Of a stretch of DNA of 64,000 nt, positions 10,864 to 57,342 are shown piece by piece; position 1 is the stretch's first letter, and the number at the start of each line of letters is the position of its first letter. The stretch is from an uncultured Acidobacteriota bacterium (GTDB taxonomy: Bacteria; Acidobacteriota; UBA6911; RPQK01; JAJDTT01): positions 1-64,000 of the forward strand of contig CATOST010000012.1 of the NCBI GenBank assembly GCA_951812665.1, read 5' to 3'. A program made the position numbers and the translations under genes. Under the pieces are notes generated by a model, which saw only the letters and a list, made by a program, of their open reading frames with translations, did no database searches and was not told the origin of the DNA.

Positions 10864-10937
10864 GCGAGTACCTCCTTGTAATTCTGGGTATCCTAGCAGT
10901 CCGTGGCGAAAGTTAAAGCAAAGGTGACTGGAATCTA

Positions 10938-48603: not shown

Positions 48604-49743
48604 ATGACCCGATGCCAAGCAGCCCGTGGAAAAAGTCGTCACGGCATTCGACCGCCCCTGCATCCCGGCGGACTGCGTTGCTATCGGCTCACATACTCCG
48701 GGGATGCTCCCTCATCGCGCCTGGTCCGGCGGGCGCAGGAACGGTCTCGGTGCTCATGGGACTTTTCCCACGGACTGCTAGCGACCCTGCTCCCGCTACT
48801 GCTGCTCTGGGCCTGCGCGGTGCCGGGTCCCGATCCCGCCCCCGACGGACGGCTGAGGATCGCCTTCATCTCCAAGTCCTACACCGATCCCTTCTGGCTG
48901 GACGCCATCGACGGCGCCCAACGGGCGGCAGAGGAGCTGGGGGTCGAACTGCTGTTGCACGCCGCCAAGAACGAGACTCAGGTCGTGGAGCAGGTCCAGA
49001 TCGTGGAGAACATGATTCAGTTGGAAGTGGACGGCATCGTGCTGGCGCCCTGCGATTCCAACGCCCTGTCGCCGGCCGTGTCGAAGGTGAACCAGGCCGG
49101 AATTCCCATCACCGTCATCGACACCGGGATCGCCGAGGGGGACATCGTCACCTTCGCCGCCACCGACAATGTCCTTTGCGGCACCGTGGCCGCCGACCGG
49201 CTGGCCGACCGCCTTTCGGCTCGAGGGAAGGTCGGCGTCATCGCCTGTCCACCCAGCATTCTGCCCTGCCGGGAAATCATGAACGGTTTTGTGGAAGGCC
49301 TGCGCAAGTATCCCGATCTGGAAATGGTGGGGTCTCCGCTGGGTGTCCCCTACTGCGACCAGTCCTTCAACGCCACCACCGATCTGCTGACAGCCCATCC
49401 CGATCTGGCGGGTCTCTACATCTTCGGAGGTCCCGCGGTTCTCTGCGCCGCCCAGGCGGCCGCAGCTTTCGGCAAGAACCTGGGGGGGGACCTGATGGTA
49501 GTGGGCCGCGGTTCCATCGGCAAAGCGGGGTTGGGGGACCTGGAGGCGGTCAAGCGTGGCGAGCTGGACGCCATGGTCGCCCAGTTTCCCGCCAAGATGG
49601 GCTATTCCGGCGTCGACAGTCTGGTCAAATTCCGCCGTGGAGTCGAATCTCCGTCCTTCACCGACACCGGCGTGGTCCTGGTGACGCAGGAGAACGTGGA
49701 CGAATTCATTCGGCAGATCGAGAGCGGGGAGCCGCTCTTGTGA
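48604..49743 (+). CDS. Sugar-type ABC transporter substrate-binding protein, N-terminus overlapping a dispersed repeat
   Basis: The mature part is a Peripla_BP_4 (ribose/galactose-binding type) solute-binding protein: LRIAFISKSYTDPFWLDAI, GAQRAAEELGVELLLHAAKN, IQLEVDGIVLAPCDSNAL, GIPITVIDTGIAEGD, a cysteine-containing DNVLCGTVAADRLADRL, and HPDLAGLYIFGGPAVLC. A lipoprotein-like signal LLATLLPLLLLWACAVPG ends in a lipobox Cys. The signal begins at the end of a 162-bp palindromic repeat, and the only in-frame ATG near it is at 48604, just before that repeat, so the first about 55 residues would be repeat-encoded. The real start is therefore uncertain (48604 or a non-ATG codon near 48760). It leads a transporter operon. 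Confidence 0.78.
   Translation: MTRCQAARGKSRHGIRPPLHPGGLRCYRLTYSGDAPSSRLVRRAQERSRCSWDFSHGLLATLLPLLLLWACAVPGPDPAPDGRLRIAFISKSYTDPFWLDAIDGAQRAAEELGVELLLHAAKNETQVVEQVQIVENMIQLEVDGIVLAPCDSNALSPAVSKVNQAGIPITVIDTGIAEGDIVTFAATDNVLCGTVAADRLADRLSARGKVGVIACPPSILPCREIMNGFVEGLRKYPDLEMVGSPLGVPYCDQSFNATTDLLTAHPDLAGLYIFGGPAVLCAAQAAAAFGKNLGGDLMVVGRGSIGKAGLGDLEAVKRGELDAMVAQFPAKMGYSGVDSLVKFRRGVESPSFTDTGVVLVTQENVDEFIRQIESGEPLL
48618..48779. repeat. Dispersed ~160-bp palindromic element, copy A
   Basis: The 20-base ends (AGCAGCCCGTGGAAAAAGTC and its near-complement at 48760-48779) pair with two mismatches, and the inner parts are also complementary (GGCATTCGACCG... with CGGTCTCGGTGC). The whole 162 bases could fold as one long hairpin. 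Copy B lies at 56095-56260. Copy A overlaps the 5' end of the sugar-binding protein gene. No transposase is encoded. A MITE-like or large REP/BIME-type element is likely. Confidence 0.85.
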
Positions 49744-50546
49744 GCGTTCCGGAAAGCGCCTCCGGAACTGCGACCGGACCCGCTGGCGGGGCCGGCCACA
49801 CAGCTCTCCTGGAGGCGGTGGGCGTCACCAAGCGATTCGGCGCGCTGGCGGCGGTCGACGGTGCCGATCTCACCGTCGGCCGGGCCGAGATCGTGGGCCT
49901 GGTGGGCGGCAACGGCGCTGGAAAATCGACACTGATCCACCTCATCTCCGGCGTCGATCTGCCCGATGTGGGACGGTTCCTGATGGAGGGCCGGCCGCTT
50001 CGAACGGGAAGCCCCGCCGAGGCCCGTCACCACGGGATCGAGACCGTGTACCAGGACCTGGCGCTCCTGGGGGAGCTGGACGTAACCGCCAACATCTTCA
50101 TGGGACGGGAGTGGCGCCGGGGCGTCCCCGGACTCCGCTGGCTGGCGGAGAAGTCGATGAAGACCGAGGCGGAAGAGTTGATCCGCAAGCTCGGTTACGA
50201 CTTCCGCGCTTCAACCCGGGTGCGTTACCTTTCGGGAGGACAGCGCCAGGCGGTAGCGCTGGCCCGTGCCCTCCTGGCCCGCGCCAAGCTGATCCTCATG
50301 GACGAACCGACGGCGGCCCTGGGGGTCGCGGAGACCCGAAAGACGCTGGATCTGATCCGGAGGTTTCGGGACGAGGGAGTCTCCCTGATCGTGATCGGTC
50401 ACGAGTTGGACGACATCTTCTCCATCGCCGACCGGATCGTGGTCATGAGGAAGGGGCAGACGGTGGCCGACCTGAGGACCCGTTCCACCAACCAGGACGA
50501 GGTCGTCAACCTGATGCTGAAGGGCCCGCTTCCCTCCAGGAGTTGA
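49740..50546 (+). CDS. Sugar ABC transporter ATP-binding protein, single domain
   Basis: A 268-residue ATPase starting at GTG 49740, overlapping the previous stop as GTGA. Walker A GGNGAGKST (56-64), Q-loop VYQDLALLG, signature YLSGGQRQ (163-170), Walker B LILMDEPTAALG (184-195) and the switch His in VIGHELDDIF are all present. It resembles RbsA/XylG ATPases, but those normally have two ATPase halves of about 500 residues. This is a single-half form, which acts as a dimer in the ribose-type branch of some Gram-negative phyla. Part of the importer with the genes on either side. Confidence 0.9.
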   Translation: MSVPESASGTATGPAGGAGHTALLEAVGVTKRFGALAAVDGADLTVGRAEIVGLVGGNGAGKSTLIHLISGVDLPDVGRFLMEGRPLRTGSPAEARHHGIETVYQDLALLGELDVTANIFMGREWRRGVPGLRWLAEKSMKTEAEELIRKLGYDFRASTRVRYLSGGQRQAVALARALLARAKLILMDEPTAALGVAETRKTLDLIRRFRDEGVSLIVIGHELDDIFSIADRIVVMRKGQTVADLRTRSTNQDEVVNLMLKGPLPSRS

Positions 50547-50553
50547 CCGGCCC

Positions 50554-51561
50554 GTGGATTGGAAGGGTTCGCTTCAAGTCTTCGTCTCCCGCTTGACGAG
50601 CCGGGGTCAGCCTCCCGCCTTGCTGAAGCTCACCCGTCTCAAGGCTCTGCTGGCGGCCACCCTGATTCTGGTGGCCGTCGTGTCCATGATCTCTCCCGTC
50701 TTTCTCACCACTCGAAATTTCCTCAACATCCTGGAACAGCTCTCCATCAACGCCATCGTCGCGGCCGGCATGACCTTCGTCATCATTGCCGCCGGGATCG
50801 ACCTCTCGGTGGGCTCGATCCTGGCCCTGGGGAGCATGGGAACGGCCGGACTTCTGGTCTCCGGGATCCCGGTCCCCGCCGCTATCGTGGGAGGATTGCT
50901 GGTGGGGACCGCCGCCGGTGCGGTCAACGGCGTCGCCGTGGCCTACGGCAAAATCCCAGCCTTCATCATGACCCTGGGGATGCTCAACGTCGCCCGGGGC
51001 ACCGTCATGTTCCTGACCAGCGGCAACTCCATCGTCGGCCTCCCGGAGAGCTTCCTGTTTCTGGGCAAGGGCCGCATCGGTCCGATCCCCGTGCTGGTGT
51101 TGATCACCGCTGCGGTCTACCTGATCGGCCACCTGGTGCTGGTGAAGACCCGCTTCGGGCGCTACACCTTCGCCATCGGAAACGATCCCGAAACGGCCCG
51201 CCGCCTGGGGGTCCGCGTGAAGCGCCACCAGTTCCTGCTCTATGCCCTGAGCGGCGGACTGGCTTCTTTTGGGGGGATATTGCTGGCGGCCCGTCTGAAC
51301 TCGGCCCTCACCCTGGCGGGGACCGGAGCCGAGCTGGACGTCATCGCGGCGGTCGTTATCGGGGGGACGAGCCTGTACGGAGGACGGGGCTCCATGCCGG
51401 GGACGCTGTTGGGCGTGATCTTCTTTCAGATCGTCCGCAATGCCCTGAACATCCTGGGCATCTCGGTCTTCGTGCAGCAGGTGGCTGTGGGGGCCCTGCT
51501 CATCTTCAGCGCCCTGGCCGACTTTCTCTACGACCGCTGGGGACGGCAGGGAGGAAGTTGA
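50554..51561 (+). CDS. Sugar ABC transporter permease (RbsC/BPD_transp_2 type)
   Basis: A 335-residue integral membrane permease with about 8-10 helices, starting GTG 50554 seven bases after the ATPase. Family segments are NFLNILEQLSINAIVAAGMT, FVIIAAGIDLSVGSILALGS, GVAVAYGKIPAFIMTLGMLN, FGRYTFAIGNDPETARRLGV and the EAA-like loop, with VVIGGTSLYGGRGSMPGTLL and VQQVAVGALLIFSALADFLY near the end. Completes a substrate-binding/ATPase/permease set for a sugar or sugar-like solute. The next gene, a convergent aldolase, could use the imported compound. Confidence 0.9.
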   Translation: MDWKGSLQVFVSRLTSRGQPPALLKLTRLKALLAATLILVAVVSMISPVFLTTRNFLNILEQLSINAIVAAGMTFVIIAAGIDLSVGSILALGSMGTAGLLVSGIPVPAAIVGGLLVGTAAGAVNGVAVAYGKIPAFIMTLGMLNVARGTVMFLTSGNSIVGLPESFLFLGKGRIGPIPVLVLITAAVYLIGHLVLVKTRFGRYTFAIGNDPETARRLGVRVKRHQFLLYALSGGLASFGGILLAARLNSALTLAGTGAELDVIAAVVIGGTSLYGGRGSMPGTLLGVIFFQIVRNALNILGISVFVQQVAVGALLIFSALADFLYDRWGRQGGS

Positions 51562-51577
51562 TTCGCTTGGCGCGGTG

Positions 51578-52366
51578 TCAGCCGCTCTCCGGCCTCCCGG
51601 ATTGGGAGGCCCGAAAGGTTTCCAAGGCGGACCTGGCCCCGCCGAGCAGAAGGCTGTAGTCGCTCCCGTAGCCCAGGAAGGTGAACCCCTGCTCCAGGCG
51701 GTGCGCCAGGTCTTCCGGGCTCCCGACGCCGATGCCGATGGCCACACCGGTCTCCCGGCCCACCTTCAAAGCCTTGTCGATCACGGCGTCCGTTTCCGGG
51801 TTCGGCTGACGCCTGGGGTCCACGCCCAGAGCCAGCGACAGGTCCCACATGCCCATGTAGAGCAGGTCGACCCCCGGCACGGATGCGATCCGCTCCAGGT
51901 CCTCAACCGCCTCGGCAGTCTCCAGCAGCAGGCCCACCAGGATGTTCCGGTTGGCCCGTTCCAGGTAGTCGTCGTAGTCGAGGGTGTAGCGGGACGCGCG
52001 CAGGGGGCCGAAACCCCGAGTCCCCTCCGGGGAATAACGGGTGGCCGCCACCACCGCCTCCGCCTCCTCCACGTTTTTCACCATGGGAACGATGATCCCC
52101 ATGCCGCCAATATCCAGAGCCTTCTGAATGGCGAACAGATCCGAGGGCGGGACCCGGACCATGGGCATGGCGCCGGAGCCGTCGATGGCCATCAGCATGC
52201 GCTCGACCTGGGCCGAGTCCAGGGCGTTGTGCTCGGTCTCGACCAGCAGCCATTCGTAACCGGAGTAGGCGAGGAGTTCGGCGACGGAGGGACTTCCGAG
52301 TCCCAGAAAACATCCGACGGCGGTTTCGCCGGCGATGACCTTGTGACGAACCTGGTTTTCCTTCAT
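51578..52366 (-). CDS. HpcH/HpaI family 2-oxo-acid aldolase
   Basis: A 262-residue class II aldolase/citrate-lyase-beta-like TIM barrel. Start ATG 52366 with GGAGG upstream; longer in-frame starts run into the antitoxin region. Key segments: VGCFLGLGSPSVAELLAYSG, WLLVETEHNALDSAQ, GMGIIVPMVKNVEEAEAVVA, YSPEGTRGFGPLRASRY, LLLETAEAVEDLERI and DLLYMGMWDLSLALG. The catalytic Glu and Asp of metal binding are in LLETAEA and MWDLS, and the basic residue in RGFGP. Reaction is probably retro-aldol cleavage of a 2-keto-3-deoxy sugar acid to pyruvate plus an aldehyde. Convergent with the permease gene of the sugar importer, 16 bases apart. Confidence 0.88.
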   Translation of the reverse strand: MKENQVRHKVIAGETAVGCFLGLGSPSVAELLAYSGYEWLLVETEHNALDSAQVERMLMAIDGSGAMPMVRVPPSDLFAIQKALDIGGMGIIVPMVKNVEEAEAVVAATRYSPEGTRGFGPLRASRYTLDYDDYLERANRNILVGLLLETAEAVEDLERIASVPGVDLLYMGMWDLSLALGVDPRRQPNPETDAVIDKALKVGRETGVAIGIGVGSPEDLAHRLEQGFTFLGYGSDYSLLLGGARSALETFRASQSGRPESG

Positions 52367-52518
52367 TTGTAGGAGCCTCCGTTGAGCTTCGATCCGCAGA
52401 AGATATGGGACGGAGAGAGGTGTGTCAAAGCCGTTCGAGGCATCACGCCAAATGTGCGCAACGAGTCCGGTTGAACTCCGGGATTGTGCCATTCCAATCC
52501 AACGGGCACGTCAGCGGG

Positions 52519-52743
52519 TCATGGCCAATCGCTAAGGACTTTCTGAATTTCCTCACTCGTGATCGGGGAAGCGCCTTCCTCAACCTGGAAAACGGGAATG
52601 TCCTCATCCCCGCTGGCCCGGCTTCGTCGGAAGCTCCGCCGCGCCAACACTGACAAAGCGCTCCCGAGGCTCACGCCTTTCCTTCGCGCGAGAGTGCGCG
52701 CCGCGGTCAACACATCGTCATCGATGGTGACTGTAGTTCTCAT
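52519..52743 (-). CDS. VapB-type ribbon-helix-helix antitoxin, orphan
   Basis: A 74-residue protein with the typical start RTTVTIDDDVLTAARTLAR, then RRKGVSLGSALSVLARRSF, the DNA-binding ribbon-helix-helix of VapB antitoxins. The tail is acidic (EDIPVFQVEEGASPITSEE). A VapC gene would be expected just downstream on the minus strand. The about 150 bases there hold no intact PIN frame, just a short stretch with weak resemblance to PIN fragments (MAQSRSSTGLVAHIWRD), too little to assign. So the toxin seems lost. Confidence 0.72.
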   Translation of the reverse strand: MRTTVTIDDDVLTAARTLARRKGVSLGSALSVLARRSFRRSRASGDEDIPVFQVEEGASPITSEEIQKVLSDWP

Positions 52744-52815
52744 GCGAAATGCGTACCATCATCCCATCAGTCCGAAATTAGACTTGGAGACTCCATTTGG
52801 TGCCGTATTCGTCGG

Positions 52816-53229
52816 TCACTCGTCCTTGCTCTCGGCTTGGAGGATGACCGCGGCCTCTCTTCCGCCGAACCTGGATTGGAACACGGTCATGCCGGCGAAC
52901 TCGTACTCGGGCGGCGCCTCGTTCATTTCCTTTTGCATCGTGCCGGTCCGGCTGGTCGCGAGCAGTATGTAGCGGAAACGCCGGCCTTCGGGGTCCAGCG
53001 ACATGACGACGACCACCTCGTTGCCGCCGAAAGCGGTCTCGCCTCCCTGAGTACCGGCAAAGCGGTAGCCTAGCGCGCCGGCTTCGTTGAGTTCCTTCTC
53101 CATGGTGCCGGTCCGGCTGGTGGCCAGAAGCAGGAACTTGTCCGGCTGCTTGGCCTCCTTTTCTCCAGCAAGAAGGTTCGGGGCGAACAGCACCAGGGCG
53201 GTCGTGAGAGAGATGAAAATCTTGGTCAA
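52816..53229 (-). CDS. Small secreted protein with an internal duplication
   Basis: About 137 residues, start at TTG 53229 after AGGAGGAAG, which gives a signal peptide MTKIFISLTTALVLFAPNLL, then AGEKEAK. The mature part has two copies of a module about 43 residues long: FLLLATSRTGTMEKELNEAG, then YRFAGTQGG, FGGNEVVVVM; and YILLATSRTGTMQKEMNEAP, then YEFAGMTVFQ, FGGREAAVIL. This is like the DUF4177-type beta-alpha-beta units, here arranged as a tandem. An upstream in-frame start at 53355 adds a non-homologous extension. Function unknown. Confidence 0.6.
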   Translation of the reverse strand: MTKIFISLTTALVLFAPNLLAGEKEAKQPDKFLLLATSRTGTMEKELNEAGALGYRFAGTQGGETAFGGNEVVVVMSLDPEGRRFRYILLATSRTGTMQKEMNEAPPEYEFAGMTVFQSRFGGREAAVILQAESKDE

Positions 53230-53652
53230 TGTTCTTCCTCCTGTTGGGACTGACGGGACATCAGGTGCATTCCGTGGTGCCAGTATGAGCGAAAACCCCC
53301 AGAAACGGGAGAGAGATGGCGAGCTGCAGGGGCAGCGCGGAATTCGAAGTTGCAAGATCGCGTGCTTCGGAACCTCGATTTTGGAATTTGCCCCGCATCA
53401 CTAACGGGGATGGGTCCCAGACCAGCCTGATCTTGGGAATTTCGATACAATTGAAACCGCTTCTTTATATGGGAATTCTATCGTCGACCACCCCATCCCA
53501 GACACCAAAAGCCGACATCGAAGCATCTCTGAAGGCCACAAACGATGATGGTCATTGAACTGACCGCACAAGACTGTGAGCGATGACGATTTAAGACCTT
53601 CGTTCGAGTAGACGAGCGGATTGCAAGCCTCAAGGAATGGAAAGGAGAGAAA

Positions 53653-54765
53653 ATGCGAAAGCAAAAAAGTTTGGCCTCCCGGCGAGTGTGTATGGTTCCC
53701 ATTTTGGCCATTGTACTCTTTCATATGGGTGTCGGCGCTCCGTCCGGCGAATCCTCAAAGGAAAATCCCGAGGGGTCATCCGGCGAGAAAAGTGTCCGCG
53801 ATGCCATCGTGGCCAGCCGGAACCTCACTCCTGAACAGGTCGCGTCGCTCGAAGAGAAACTGGCGAATGATCCGAGTGATGTAGCTGTGCGGACGCAGCT
53901 TCTCGCTTTTTACGGTGGGGTACGTTCGATTCGGAATCAGTCGGCAAAGGAAACGAAACGCGAACACGCGCTGTGGTTCATCCGGAACTCACCGGAGTCG
54001 GAAATCCTGGGAATGCCTCCTTCGCGGATCGACCACATCCTTGATCGAAACGGTTACGCGAAGGCCAAGGAAGCCTGGATGAGTCAGATCGACCGTGAAC
54101 CCGAAAACACGACGTTATTGGGACATGCGGCAGATTTCTTCATGTTTGGGGATCGCAGGACCTCCATCAAATTGCTCCAGCAGGCTCATTCGCTCGATCC
54201 CTCCAACCCGGAATGGCCGAGTAAACTCGGGCAAATATTTAGTTTTGGAGTCCGGGAACCGGGGGCAGGCGACCTGGAAATCGCTAAGAAGTCGCTAGAG
54301 AACTATGAAAGGGCATTCGAGCTATCAGACGATTCGGGTCGAGATTCACTTCTGGAAGATCTTGCAAAAGCAGCGTTTTCGGCGGACCGGCTGGACAAGG
54401 CCCGGAAGTATGCGGAACTCATGCTGCAAAATATGGAAGAGGGATGGAACTATGGGAACCGCGTCCACCACGGCAACCTCGTTCTGGGTCGCATCGCATT
54501 GCGGGAAGGCAAGATCGAAGCAGCGAAATCTCGTTTGATTGCCGCGGGGGAGACGCCGGGCTCGCCCCAGCTGAATTCATTCGGACCGAATATGGCACTC
54601 GCCAAGGCACTCCTTGAAATCGGTGAACGAGAGGTCGTTCTGGAGTATTTTGGGCTTTGCTCAAAGTTCTGGAACTCGGATCGGGCGAAGGACAAATTGG
54701 ACAAGTGGGGCGTTCTCGCGACGGCCGGCAGGATACCCGACTTTCGTGCAAATCTCGATTATTGA
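53653..54765 (+). CDS. Secreted TPR-like helical repeat protein
   Basis: A 370-residue protein from ATG 53653, preceded by AAGGAGAGAAA. A signal peptide (residues about 10-31, VCMVPILAIVLFHMGVG) is followed by TPR/SEL1-like helical pairs: LTPEQVASLEEKLANDPSDV and DRRTSIKLLQQAHSLDPSNP, then LENYERAFELSDDSGRDSLL and LDKARKYAELMLQNMEEG. Composition is more AT-rich than its neighbours, which might mean transfer. The final part is helical, ending near KWGVLATAGRIPDFR. It precedes another TPR gene, though separated by about 100 bases. Confidence 0.7.
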   Translation: MRKQKSLASRRVCMVPILAIVLFHMGVGAPSGESSKENPEGSSGEKSVRDAIVASRNLTPEQVASLEEKLANDPSDVAVRTQLLAFYGGVRSIRNQSAKETKREHALWFIRNSPESEILGMPPSRIDHILDRNGYAKAKEAWMSQIDREPENTTLLGHAADFFMFGDRRTSIKLLQQAHSLDPSNPEWPSKLGQIFSFGVREPGAGDLEIAKKSLENYERAFELSDDSGRDSLLEDLAKAAFSADRLDKARKYAELMLQNMEEGWNYGNRVHHGNLVLGRIALREGKIEAAKSRLIAAGETPGSPQLNSFGPNMALAKALLEIGEREVVLEYFGLCSKFWNSDRAKDKLDKWGVLATAGRIPDFRANLDY

Positions 54766-54880
54766 TTCAGGAGTACTCCAGCCAGTCGACCCTTAGGTTC
54801 CAAGCCATCCGAGGCGTGCTGTCCACTCTTTTGCCTGCATGGAGGAAATCCGGAATCGAACCGGTCCGTTTTTTGCCGCC

Positions 54881-56041
54881 ATGCTGATTCGCGGCCTCCT
54901 TCTCTGTGCTCTACTGCCGATCGTCGTAACCCCGGTGGCCGCCGGTCAGGAAACCGCGGTTCGGAGGCAGTTGCAGGGCGCCATAGAGGCGGAGGAGAGG
55001 GGCGACTTGCAGGCGGCCGAGGAGGGCTACAGCAGCATCCTGAAACTGCACCCGGAACGGGCCGACATCATGGTCCGGTTGGGGCTGGTTTACCAGTACC
55101 AGGGCCGGTTGGGCCCGGCTGTCGACGCGATCCAGAGCGCCCTGACCCTCGATCCCGATCTCCCCGAGGCCCACTTCTATCTAGGGCTGGCCTATTTCGG
55201 CCTCCACCGCTGCGCCGAGGCCTCAGTGGCCCTTCAAGAAGCGATTTCGCGGGACTCGAGAAACATCAAGGCTCAGGTCTATCTGGGCGTCTGCCTACTG
55301 GCGCTGGGACGGGTGGATGAGAGCATCGGACATCTGGAGGCGTTGACCCGCAGCCATCCTCGGGAGTTGGAAGCCTTGCAGACGCTGGCCCAGGCTTACC
55401 TGACGAAAGGCAGCGACGACGGCTTCAACCGGACCATCGCCCGGATCGACGAGGCCGAACCCAATTCCTTCCGGGCCCACCAGCTCAGGGCCGAGTTTTT
55501 CGCCGCTCGAGGACGCCTGAACGAGGCTGCCCAGGTGTACGAGAAAGCGGTTGCCCGGAACCCGGATGCGCCCGGAGTCAACTTCGCTCTCGGGGACGTC
55601 TACTTCGGCCTGGGGCAATACGACAAGGCGGAGCCGGTGCTGCGGAAGGAGCTGAAGATCGATCCGCATCACCCCATCGTCAACCTGGATTTGGGAATCA
55701 TCAAGAACTCGCGGCAGCAGTTCGACCAGGCGATTCGTCACCTGGAGAGAGCGTTGCAGGTGGATGTCAGGCTCCCGGACGCCCACGTGGCTCTGGCTTC
55801 GGCCTACGAGGCCAAGGGCCGACTGCGGGCCGCCGAAGGCGCCCTCCACCGGGCCGTCGCACTGGATCCCGGGGATCCACAACCCCACTACGAGTTGGCC
55901 CAGGTCTACCGGAAGCTGGGGCTGATGGAAGATGCCCGCGTCTCACTGGAACGTTTTCAGAGATTGGAAGAGGAGGGGAGCCAAGAGCGGCAGCGCGCTG
56001 CTGAGGGCCTCCGGGAGAAAAAACCGCGATGCCCGGCCTGA
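54881..56041 (+). CDS. Exported TPR protein
   Basis: A 386-residue protein; ATG 54881 gives a signal MLIRGLLLCALLPIVVTPVA, then AGQE (an in-frame ATG at 54839 adds 14 charged residues). About eight TPR units follow: AIEAEERGDLQAAEEGYSSI, IMVRLGLVYQYQGRLGPAVD, AHFYLGLAYFGLHRCAEASV, FALGDVYFGLGQYDKAEPVL, and VALASAYEAKGRLRAAEGAL. It probably serves as a protein-protein interaction scaffold in the periplasm. Charged C-terminus QERQRAAEGLREKKP. The downstream neighbour is the palindromic repeat copy B. Confidence 0.8.
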   Translation: MLIRGLLLCALLPIVVTPVAAGQETAVRRQLQGAIEAEERGDLQAAEEGYSSILKLHPERADIMVRLGLVYQYQGRLGPAVDAIQSALTLDPDLPEAHFYLGLAYFGLHRCAEASVALQEAISRDSRNIKAQVYLGVCLLALGRVDESIGHLEALTRSHPRELEALQTLAQAYLTKGSDDGFNRTIARIDEAEPNSFRAHQLRAEFFAARGRLNEAAQVYEKAVARNPDAPGVNFALGDVYFGLGQYDKAEPVLRKELKIDPHHPIVNLDLGIIKNSRQQFDQAIRHLERALQVDVRLPDAHVALASAYEAKGRLRAAEGALHRAVALDPGDPQPHYELAQVYRKLGLMEDARVSLERFQRLEEEGSQERQRAAEGLREKKPRCPA

Positions 56042-56094
56042 TTGACATTCGTCGACATGGAAGCGGTGGCGGACTCCTCGAATAGTTGTTTCCT

Positions 56095-56260
56095 TTAACA
56101 GCCCGTGGCAAAAGTCGTCACGGCATTCGACCGTCCCTGCATCCCGGCGGACGGCGTTGCGATTCGGGCACATACTCCCGGTATGCACCCGAATCGCGCC
56201 TTGTCCGGCGGGCGCAGGAACGGTCTCAGTGCTCGCGCGACTTTCACCACGGACTGTTAA
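56095..56260. repeat. Dispersed ~160-bp palindromic element, copy B
   Basis: The ends TTAACAGCCCGTGGCAAAAG (from 56095) and GACTTTCACCACGGACTGTTAA (to 56260, complement of the first with few mismatches) pair. The centre holds GATTCGGG...CATAC...GTATG...CCCGAATC as a second stem, so all 166 bases can fold. It is about 80 percent identical to copy A. The terminal AACAG/CTGTT here corresponds to AGCAG/CTGCT in copy A, a compensatory change. It lies between the TPR gene and the amino-acid-type binding protein gene. Confidence 0.85.
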
Positions 56261-56463: not shown

Positions 56464-57342
56464 ATGCGAAGAAAGCAAGTAGTGTGTGGCTTAGTCGTCG
56501 TTGCCCTGATCGGCGGTGCCAGCCCTCAGGTGATGGCCCAGATTTTCCCCTGGTGGTCTTTTGAGAACAGCGTTAGCGTTCTTGAGGAGGTCCAGGACCG
56601 TGGGACGATCAGAGTCGGTCTGGGCCTGTTCGAGCCTTGGTCGCTCTGCAATGCCGACGGCGAGCTGATCGGCTTTGAGATCGATGTCGCGAGCAAATTA
56701 GCCGAGGATATCGGGGTAGAGGTTAAATTTGAGCGGGCGAACTGGAGATACATCATCACATCCCTGATCGAGGAGGATTTTGACGCCATCGTCAGTGGTA
56801 TGACGATCCTTCCAAGCCGTAATCTCAGGGTCAATTTCGCGTCACCGTACAACTTGACTGGCGTCTATCTGGTGGCGAATACAGCGGAAACCGCCGACTT
56901 GGAAACGCTGGAAGATTTCAACAGCTCCGATGTCACGATTGGGACCCGGAGCGGAGCTTCGTCCATCCCCGCGATCCAGAATGTTTTTCCCAGTGCCATG
57001 ATCGAGCTCTTTGATACCGACAACGACGTCCTCGATGCCGTGGTTGCCGGTGATGTCGATGCTGCGGCAGCGTTCGCGTCGACGGGGGCCACATGGGTTG
57101 AAGCCAACCCCGACACCCTGCACCAGCCCTCCGAGGAGCCGTTTGCCTTGGAACCGTTGGCGATGGCCGTGCGGAAAGGCGATCTCGACATCTTAAATTT
57201 CCTCAATGGCTGGATTACGGTCAACGAGTCGAATGGCTGGCTCGAGCAGCGCCGCCAGTATTGGTTCGAGGGCAGCGAGTGGGAGGATCAGAGGGCTACC
57301 GATGAGGACACCATCGCTGCGTGCGATCAATCCTTTCTGTAG
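56464..57342 (+). CDS. Amino-acid-type ABC transporter substrate-binding protein (SBP_bac_3)
   Basis: A 292-residue family 3 solute-binding protein with a signal peptide (VVCGLVVVALIGGASPQVMA). Typical: GTIRVGLGLFEPWSLCNADG, ELIGFEIDVASKLAEDIGVE, DFDAIVSGMTILPSRNLRV, FASPYNLTGVYLVANTAE, TIGTRSGASSIPAIQNVF and LAMAVRKGDLDILNFLNGWI. A near-perfect Shine-Dalgarno AAGGAGGT sits five bases before the ATG. No permease or ATPase is adjacent, so it must work with a transporter elsewhere or act as a sensor. The gene is lower in GC than its neighbours and may have been acquired. Confidence 0.87.
   Translation: MRRKQVVCGLVVVALIGGASPQVMAQIFPWWSFENSVSVLEEVQDRGTIRVGLGLFEPWSLCNADGELIGFEIDVASKLAEDIGVEVKFERANWRYIITSLIEEDFDAIVSGMTILPSRNLRVNFASPYNLTGVYLVANTAETADLETLEDFNSSDVTIGTRSGASSIPAIQNVFPSAMIELFDTDNDVLDAVVAGDVDAAAAFASTGATWVEANPDTLHQPSEEPFALEPLAMAVRKGDLDILNFLNGWITVNESNGWLEQRRQYWFEGSEWEDQRATDEDTIAACDQSFL

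Follow-up and report, generated by a model that had tools for sequence, protein, structure and literature searches.

What are the two related repeats of about 160 bp, each able to fold from end to end, that occur in the first 64,000 nucleotides of contig CATOST010000012.1 (assembly GCA_951812665.1) of an uncultured Acidobacteriota bacterium, and is their folded form under selection? A sequence-only reading of this stretch, referred to below as the window, had described the pair and had taken paired changes in their stems as a sign of selection on a DNA or RNA fold. Judging from sequence features, the two repeats represent a single non-autonomous transposable element of 158 bp, a miniature inverted-repeat transposable element (MITE). 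Over its whole length it folds into one hairpin, the shape of which probably matters during transposition.

Two copies of a mobile hairpin element

Copy A occupies positions 48620–48777 (+) and the intergenic copy B positions 56099–56256 (+) of the window. Each is exactly 158 bp long, and they are identical at 138 of 158 positions (87%); the slightly longer intervals reported before include flanking target bases. Terminal inverted repeats of 18 bp delimit the element. In copy A they are located at 48620–48637 (+; CAGCCCGTGGAAAAAGTC, matching the ends of an insertion sequence (IS) in the same genome, L071/L072) and 48760–48777 (−), in copy B at 56099–56116 (+; CAGCCCGTGGCAAAAGTC, identical to the IS end) and 56239–56256 (−). 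The target-site duplicates of copy B are both TTAA (56095–56098 and 56257–56260), and those of copy A are CAAG (48616–48619) and CTAG (48778–48781), which match at three of four positions.

The duplications are a property of the whole family, as 4-bp direct repeats flank the CAG...CTG boundaries in aligned copies. An exact 4-bp repeat was found in 24 of 46 full-length copies from the same genus (shuffled mean 3.1, maximum 9 of 2000) and a 5-bp repeat in none of the 46. At the two middle positions of the target, T and A each occur in 40 of the 46 copies, which gives the target NTAN. The copy census in the element's own genome was based on 1.26 Mb of its DNA and on motif counts. At least 40 strong matches to copy A are listed from 192 BLAST candidates. 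When up to two mismatches are allowed, the terminal motif CAGNCCGTGGNNAAAGTC has 349 occurrences, compared to 27 of a reversed control. By these counts the family comprises well over 100 copies in the genome. Furthermore, the site of copy A is empty in the same-genus genomes G001 (90% identical) and G003 (87%), where the gene is present, the element is absent at the exact place and the alignment shows no loss of sequence. The probability that the repeats are ancestral or similar by chance, and not mobile, is negligible, since target duplications and the empty site refute this explanation and nothing was found in its favor. In summary, the element is short, has no capacity to encode a transposase, carries terminal inverted repeats, is flanked by target duplications, is multicopy with insertion polymorphism, and has an autonomous relative that shares its ends. 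It is a MITE by every testable criterion and thus of a kind already known.

The paired outermost stems (AGCAG/CTGCT in copy A, AACAG/CTGTT in copy B), which had been read as a compensatory change, do differ as described, but the changing bases belong to the target duplications (CAAG/CTAG and TTAA/TTAA). The outermost pair is the innermost base of the 4-bp direct duplication around NTAN and therefore cannot serve as evidence for a fold. Where the duplication is perfect but not a palindrome (13 copies), the innermost flanking position pairs only four times. The paired look of the flanks arises mainly because many targets are palindromes, such as CTAG, TTAA and ATAT. The edge of an inverted repeat may thus mimic compensatory change when target duplications are palindromic, which calls for caution in similar cases.

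Two versions shortened to 97 bp retain both ends (L054:8571–8667, with a TTAC/TTAC duplication, and L051:11477–11573). The window also contains a lone element end at 10893–10914 (CTAG followed by CAGTCCGTGGCGAAAGTT), for which no second matching end was found nearby and which is possibly a decayed remnant.

Gene context of the two copies

Both copies had been placed upstream of genes for ABC substrate-binding proteins. This holds for copy B, which lies about 0.2 kb before an open reading frame (ORF) at 56464–57342 (+), a putative ABC-type amino-acid substrate-binding protein gene as named from its sequence. Copy A, however, is located inside the 5' end of its gene, a sugar-type ABC substrate-binding lipoprotein gene at 48604–49743 (+) that is interrupted after codon 4. 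Copy A and one target copy add 162 bp or exactly 54 codons, and the frame stays open throughout. When both are removed, the gene reads MTRCLATLLPLLLLWACA, a lipoprotein signal. The 54 additional in-frame codons are thus placed between codon 4 and the signal peptide.

A probable partner insertion sequence in the same genome

The earlier suggestions to look for further genomic copies, target-site duplications and an IS with matching ends all proved fruitful. The last of these led to a 1.48-kb IS on contig 30 (L071/L072; 1476–1478 bp), which has the same 18–19-bp ends as the MITE (CAGCCCGTGGCAAAAGTCC and its mirror). At L072:4559–6036 it is flanked by a TTAG/TTAG duplication. The IS encodes a transposase of 451 amino acids, intact in several genomic copies, with the Pfam domains DUF772 (3e-17) and DDE_Tnp_1_6 (above cut-off). 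The best NCBIfam match of this protein is IS1182 (NF033551) with 170.6 bits, which does not reach the curated cut-off of 270, so that membership is only approximate and the IS is called IS1182-like here. IS and MITE have nothing obvious in common beyond the terminal ~18 bp. This rules out an origin of the MITE by internal deletion of the partner IS, and it also removes the concern that the repeats are fragments of this IS. A 1.67-kb unit containing an IS110-type element was likewise rejected as the autonomous partner, as it consists of an IS110 nested in the hairpin tip (see below). Because ends and target rule are common to both elements, the MITE is probably mobilized in trans by the resident IS1182-like transposase. 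IS1182-like ISs also occur in other core-carrying genomes, where they have different ends and flanks of the NTAN type (L265 of G378 and L264 of G087; CTGCCTGTGGCTAAAGC, and CTACTTTCCGGTGAAGAA with TTAG/TTAG).

A conserved core with covarying stems

The whole element forms one imperfect hairpin from end to end. Both copies were folded as single-stranded DNA, flanks included, with dinucleotide shuffles as control. Copy A reached −44.7 kcal/mol (shuffle mean −29.3, z = −4.9) and copy B −61.0 kcal/mol (shuffle mean −30.7, z = −8.9), and in neither case was any of 200 shuffles as good. The tip stem GATTCGGG/CCCGAATC noted in copy B is located at 56161 and 56188. The center of the hairpin is a conserved core of 77 nt, positioned at 48660–48736 (+) in copy A and at 56139–56215 (+) in copy B. 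They score 81.9 and 89.2 bits, respectively, with the covariance model R1, copy A being among the model's 25 sequences. The core is built of four short helices, and the internal loops between them hardly vary in sequence. The unpaired positions that are kept include the GTTGC-side loop, a TT bulge and a TCA/CTC loop.

The helices covary. In a set of 25 cores that are less than ~88% identical (A2), 45 two-sided changes were counted versus 18.9 ± 3.7 in shuffled controls and at most 17 in slid registers. A set of 40 distinct cores (A3), many from genomes outside the model but in an alignment fitted to it, gave 105 versus 38.4 ± 4.5 and no more than 22. In both cases the shuffling does not take relatedness into account. 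In the larger set 14 of 20 pairs show two-sided change, with per-pair types such as UA18/CG13/GC5 or GC18/CG13. Selection on the folded form thus has real support, which comes from the strong covariation of the core across the phylum.

Whether DNA or RNA is folded had been left open. G.T and A.C mismatches occur in similar numbers (17:14, 39:26 and 23:26), which favors DNA and argues against selection on an RNA strand. Rfam contains no family that matches at its gathering score, the best weak matches being far below. Based on these two results, an RNA element was rejected.

They also bear on the assumption that the hairpin has been domesticated by the host as a terminator, a stabilizer of mRNA 3' ends, a binding site for gyrase or a nucleoid protein, or a small RNA. 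Strong hairpins near genes can affect expression, with examples among MITEs (PMC3733652), and a core conserved across the phylum would suit a host function. However, G.U is not preferred over A.C, no Rfam family matches near any gathering score, and the distribution is patchy (11 of 396 genomes by exact pattern, 45 of 297 by model). In addition, copies lie between genes in all kinds of arrangement and also inside ORFs, although ORF calls are crude in this GC-rich genome, and copy A interrupts a gene. A host function is therefore highly doubtful.

In the resident copies of the element's own genome, compensation was found in only 13 of 143 changed paired cells, indicating that pairing is not maintained after insertion. 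Together, the covariation of the core and the decay of resident copies suggest that selection acts on active, moving copies.

Distribution, constant length and changing ends

Each of the four genomes of this genus contains the full element, and in G075, which belongs to another family, the full 158 bp were matched at 75% identity. In G087 the match is limited to the central 77 bp. They lie inside an element that is flanked by a CTAG duplication and whose ends are entirely different (TCCCCTGGAACCGTG). An exact core pattern was found in 11 of 396 Acidobacteriota genomes and produced no control matches, whereas the covariance model located the core in 45 of 297 Acidobacteriota genomes and 33 of 166 genera. 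Among the matches listed for public genome contigs were metagenome-assembled genomes (MAGs) of Acidobacteria, Vicinamibacterales and Aminicenantes and one Clostridiales MAG. The queries used did not detect the core in collections of plasmids, phages and viral contigs.

In the Clostridiales MAG, a T-box leader is closely followed on its downstream side by three tandem copies of the core (L215:474–709; first copy 57 bits, E 2e-12). The other 290 genomes of its class gave no match; with one MAG among 291 genomes tested, the core was rejected as a common motif of Clostridia. In several Acidobacteria MAGs a second, GC-rich hairpin of ~50 bp (CACCCCAACGCGG...CCGCGTTGGGGACCCC) is nested in the core stem, often at the same place (L156, L158, L169, L178, L194, L204, L208, L217 and L227).

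The length of the element is nearly constant: 74 of 91 distinct elements are exactly 158 bp long and 85 measure 157–159 bp. Ends were called by inverted repeats and target duplication with lengths from 135 to 180 allowed. The calls required a target match at three of four positions and at least one central TA, which selects for real ends but not for length. Outside the own genus nine end types were distinguished, e.g. CAGCCCGTGG, TGGCCCGTCC, TCCCCTGGAA, TGGTGTGTCC and TGCCCGGTCC. Their targets are NTAN in nearly all cases, mostly CTAG. Some end types resemble drifted relatives of each other (NNNCCCGT), so slow divergence is as likely as a swapping of ends. In either case the core outlasts the ends in evolution. 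Among 82 elements of 158 bp from all lineages, one plus-strand frame is free of stop codons in 78 and a second one in 75. On average 3.4 of 6 frames are open compared to 1.8 of 6 in shuffled sequence, a weak test as the 82 sequences are related.

These data also bear on the chief rival explanation, an ordinary MITE that depends on its ends alone. In this view the interior plays no active part, and its covariation is a mutational by-product of template switching from one arm of the palindrome to the other. MITE status is well supported, pairing is not maintained in resident copies, and the correction of palindromes by template switching is established biology. However, correction between arms would be expected to erase the specific unpaired positions that persist in the core. 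The fixed length of 158 bp over end types of widely differing sequence and the survival of the core beyond that of the ends are also unexpected for a passive interior. This explanation is accordingly rated as unlikely.

An IS110 element in the hairpin tip

Two MITE copies (L031:7239–8913 and L070:7010–8683) carry an IS110-type element in the hairpin tip, inserted at an identical nucleotide position. Its transposase of 317 amino acids exceeds the NCBIfam IS110 cut-off. The nested IS110 parts differ at two positions in ~1.5 kb, while the surrounding MITE arms differ at 11, which suggests two independent insertions at the same target. The core, with the tip sequence GGTATGCT/CCC, is thereby a natural target of an RNA-guided IS110 element.

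This raises the question of whether the hairpin is kept as a landing site for IS1182-type or IS110-type elements, and not as a passenger. The two apparently independent insertions at one core-tip nucleotide fit this idea, as do the replacement of stem-loops by IS1272 (PMC5678879) and the use of repetitive extragenic palindromes (REPs) as specific insertion sites by some IS elements (PMC1525189). However, an element gains no obvious benefit from being a target, and the target duplications and shared terminal repeats would be left unexplained. This explanation is doubtful.

Relation to known elements

The element shares its small size, lack of coding capacity, terminal inverted repeats, target duplications, high copy number and a related full-length IS in the same genome with bacterial MITEs such as NEMIS/Correia, RUP, ERIC and Nezha. 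It differs from them by a conserved 77-nt core with covarying stems, a near-constant length of 158 bp, about nine end types and an occurrence in many families of one phylum. By profile, the nearest transposase family includes that of IS1272 from Staphylococcus (IS1182 family), which targets stem-loops whatever their sequence and has terminal repeats able to form a hairpin (PMC5678879). IS1272, however, takes the place of the target stem-loop, which is deleted, and no target duplication arises, whereas here a 4-bp NTAN duplication is formed and the element itself is the stem-loop. Replacement of the IS1272 type was rejected in view of these duplications and of the empty site of copy A, which aligns without sequence loss.

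REPs, REPINs and bacterial interspersed mosaic elements with their associated tyrosine transposases (RAYTs) are also dispersed palindromes and targets of some IS elements, but they consist of units or doublets of 20–40 bp tagged with GTAG or CGTC, and the GTAG kind is linked to tyrosine transposases (PMC3733652, PMC3116915). With 158 bp, terminal inverted repeats, target duplications and a DDE-type partner, the present element does not belong to them. The palindromic elements of Rickettsia (mentioned in PMC3733652) can be inserted into genes without breaking the reading frame, as is copy A with its 54 codons. In contrast to them, the present element has target duplications and a partner IS linked by its terminal repeats; in-frame tolerance was directly seen in one case.

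Rickettsia palindromic elements are also similar in size to the 158-bp element. Integron attC sites are imperfect hairpins with free stem sequence and conserved unpaired features, and terminal inverted repeats and target duplications are not among their features. The element resembles attC sites in the former three respects and differs from them in the latter two. No integrase or cassette array was seen, although no search aimed at them was made.

A proposed mechanism and its significance

The preferred reading is that the MITE is a selfish hairpin element and that its shape plays a part in transposition; we consider it probable, and its fold part is inferred. The transposase would recognize the MITE ends and move the element in trans, making 4-bp staggered cuts in the target. 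The hairpin may form when a cruciform is extruded or when single strands are exposed, and it may be recognized by the transposition complex or needed to bring the ends together. Less certain than mobilization in trans is the suggestion that the hairpin shape and the length of 158 bp, corresponding to ~15 turns of B-DNA, are read by the transposition complex or help to assemble it. If the hairpin is part of this recognition, selection would act on active copies and inserted copies would decay afterwards. By analogy, such a mechanism would fit the stem-loop preference of IS1272.

Several points weigh against this reading. Apart from the sub-threshold IS1182 score and the limits of the covariation controls given above, template switching between the arms of a palindrome can produce covariation even where no selection acts. 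G002 contains ~130 MITE end motifs yet no detectable transposase. Among ten other core-carrying genomes tested, no IS1182-type gene was detected at E ≤ 1e-10 in six, and in the four with matches no IS was identified whose ends match the MITEs of the same genome. In lineages without a match the mobilizer may be lost, unassembled or of another kind. Moreover, the evidence for mobility comes from sequence comparisons.

A wider proposal is that the element belongs to a superfamily of hairpin mini-transposons in which the machinery reads the hairpin shape and the fixed 158 bp. The same core would be used throughout the Acidobacteriota, with terminal repeats re-fitted or slowly evolving for different transposases. 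This is tentative and somewhat more likely to be wrong than right. No MITE superfamily that spans a phylum and combines a covarying core with a nearly constant length and strongly differing ends was found in the open-access literature searched or in Rfam. The core is usable as a mobile-element marker for Acidobacteriota genomes. The interiors of MITEs are mostly treated as passive sequence between terminal repeats, whereas here the interior fold outlives the ends. Together with the near-constant length across the phylum, this makes a role of DNA shape in DDE transposition directly testable on a 158-bp substrate. If the wider proposal is true, the element would be a DDE transposon that is defined by structure and not purely by sequence.

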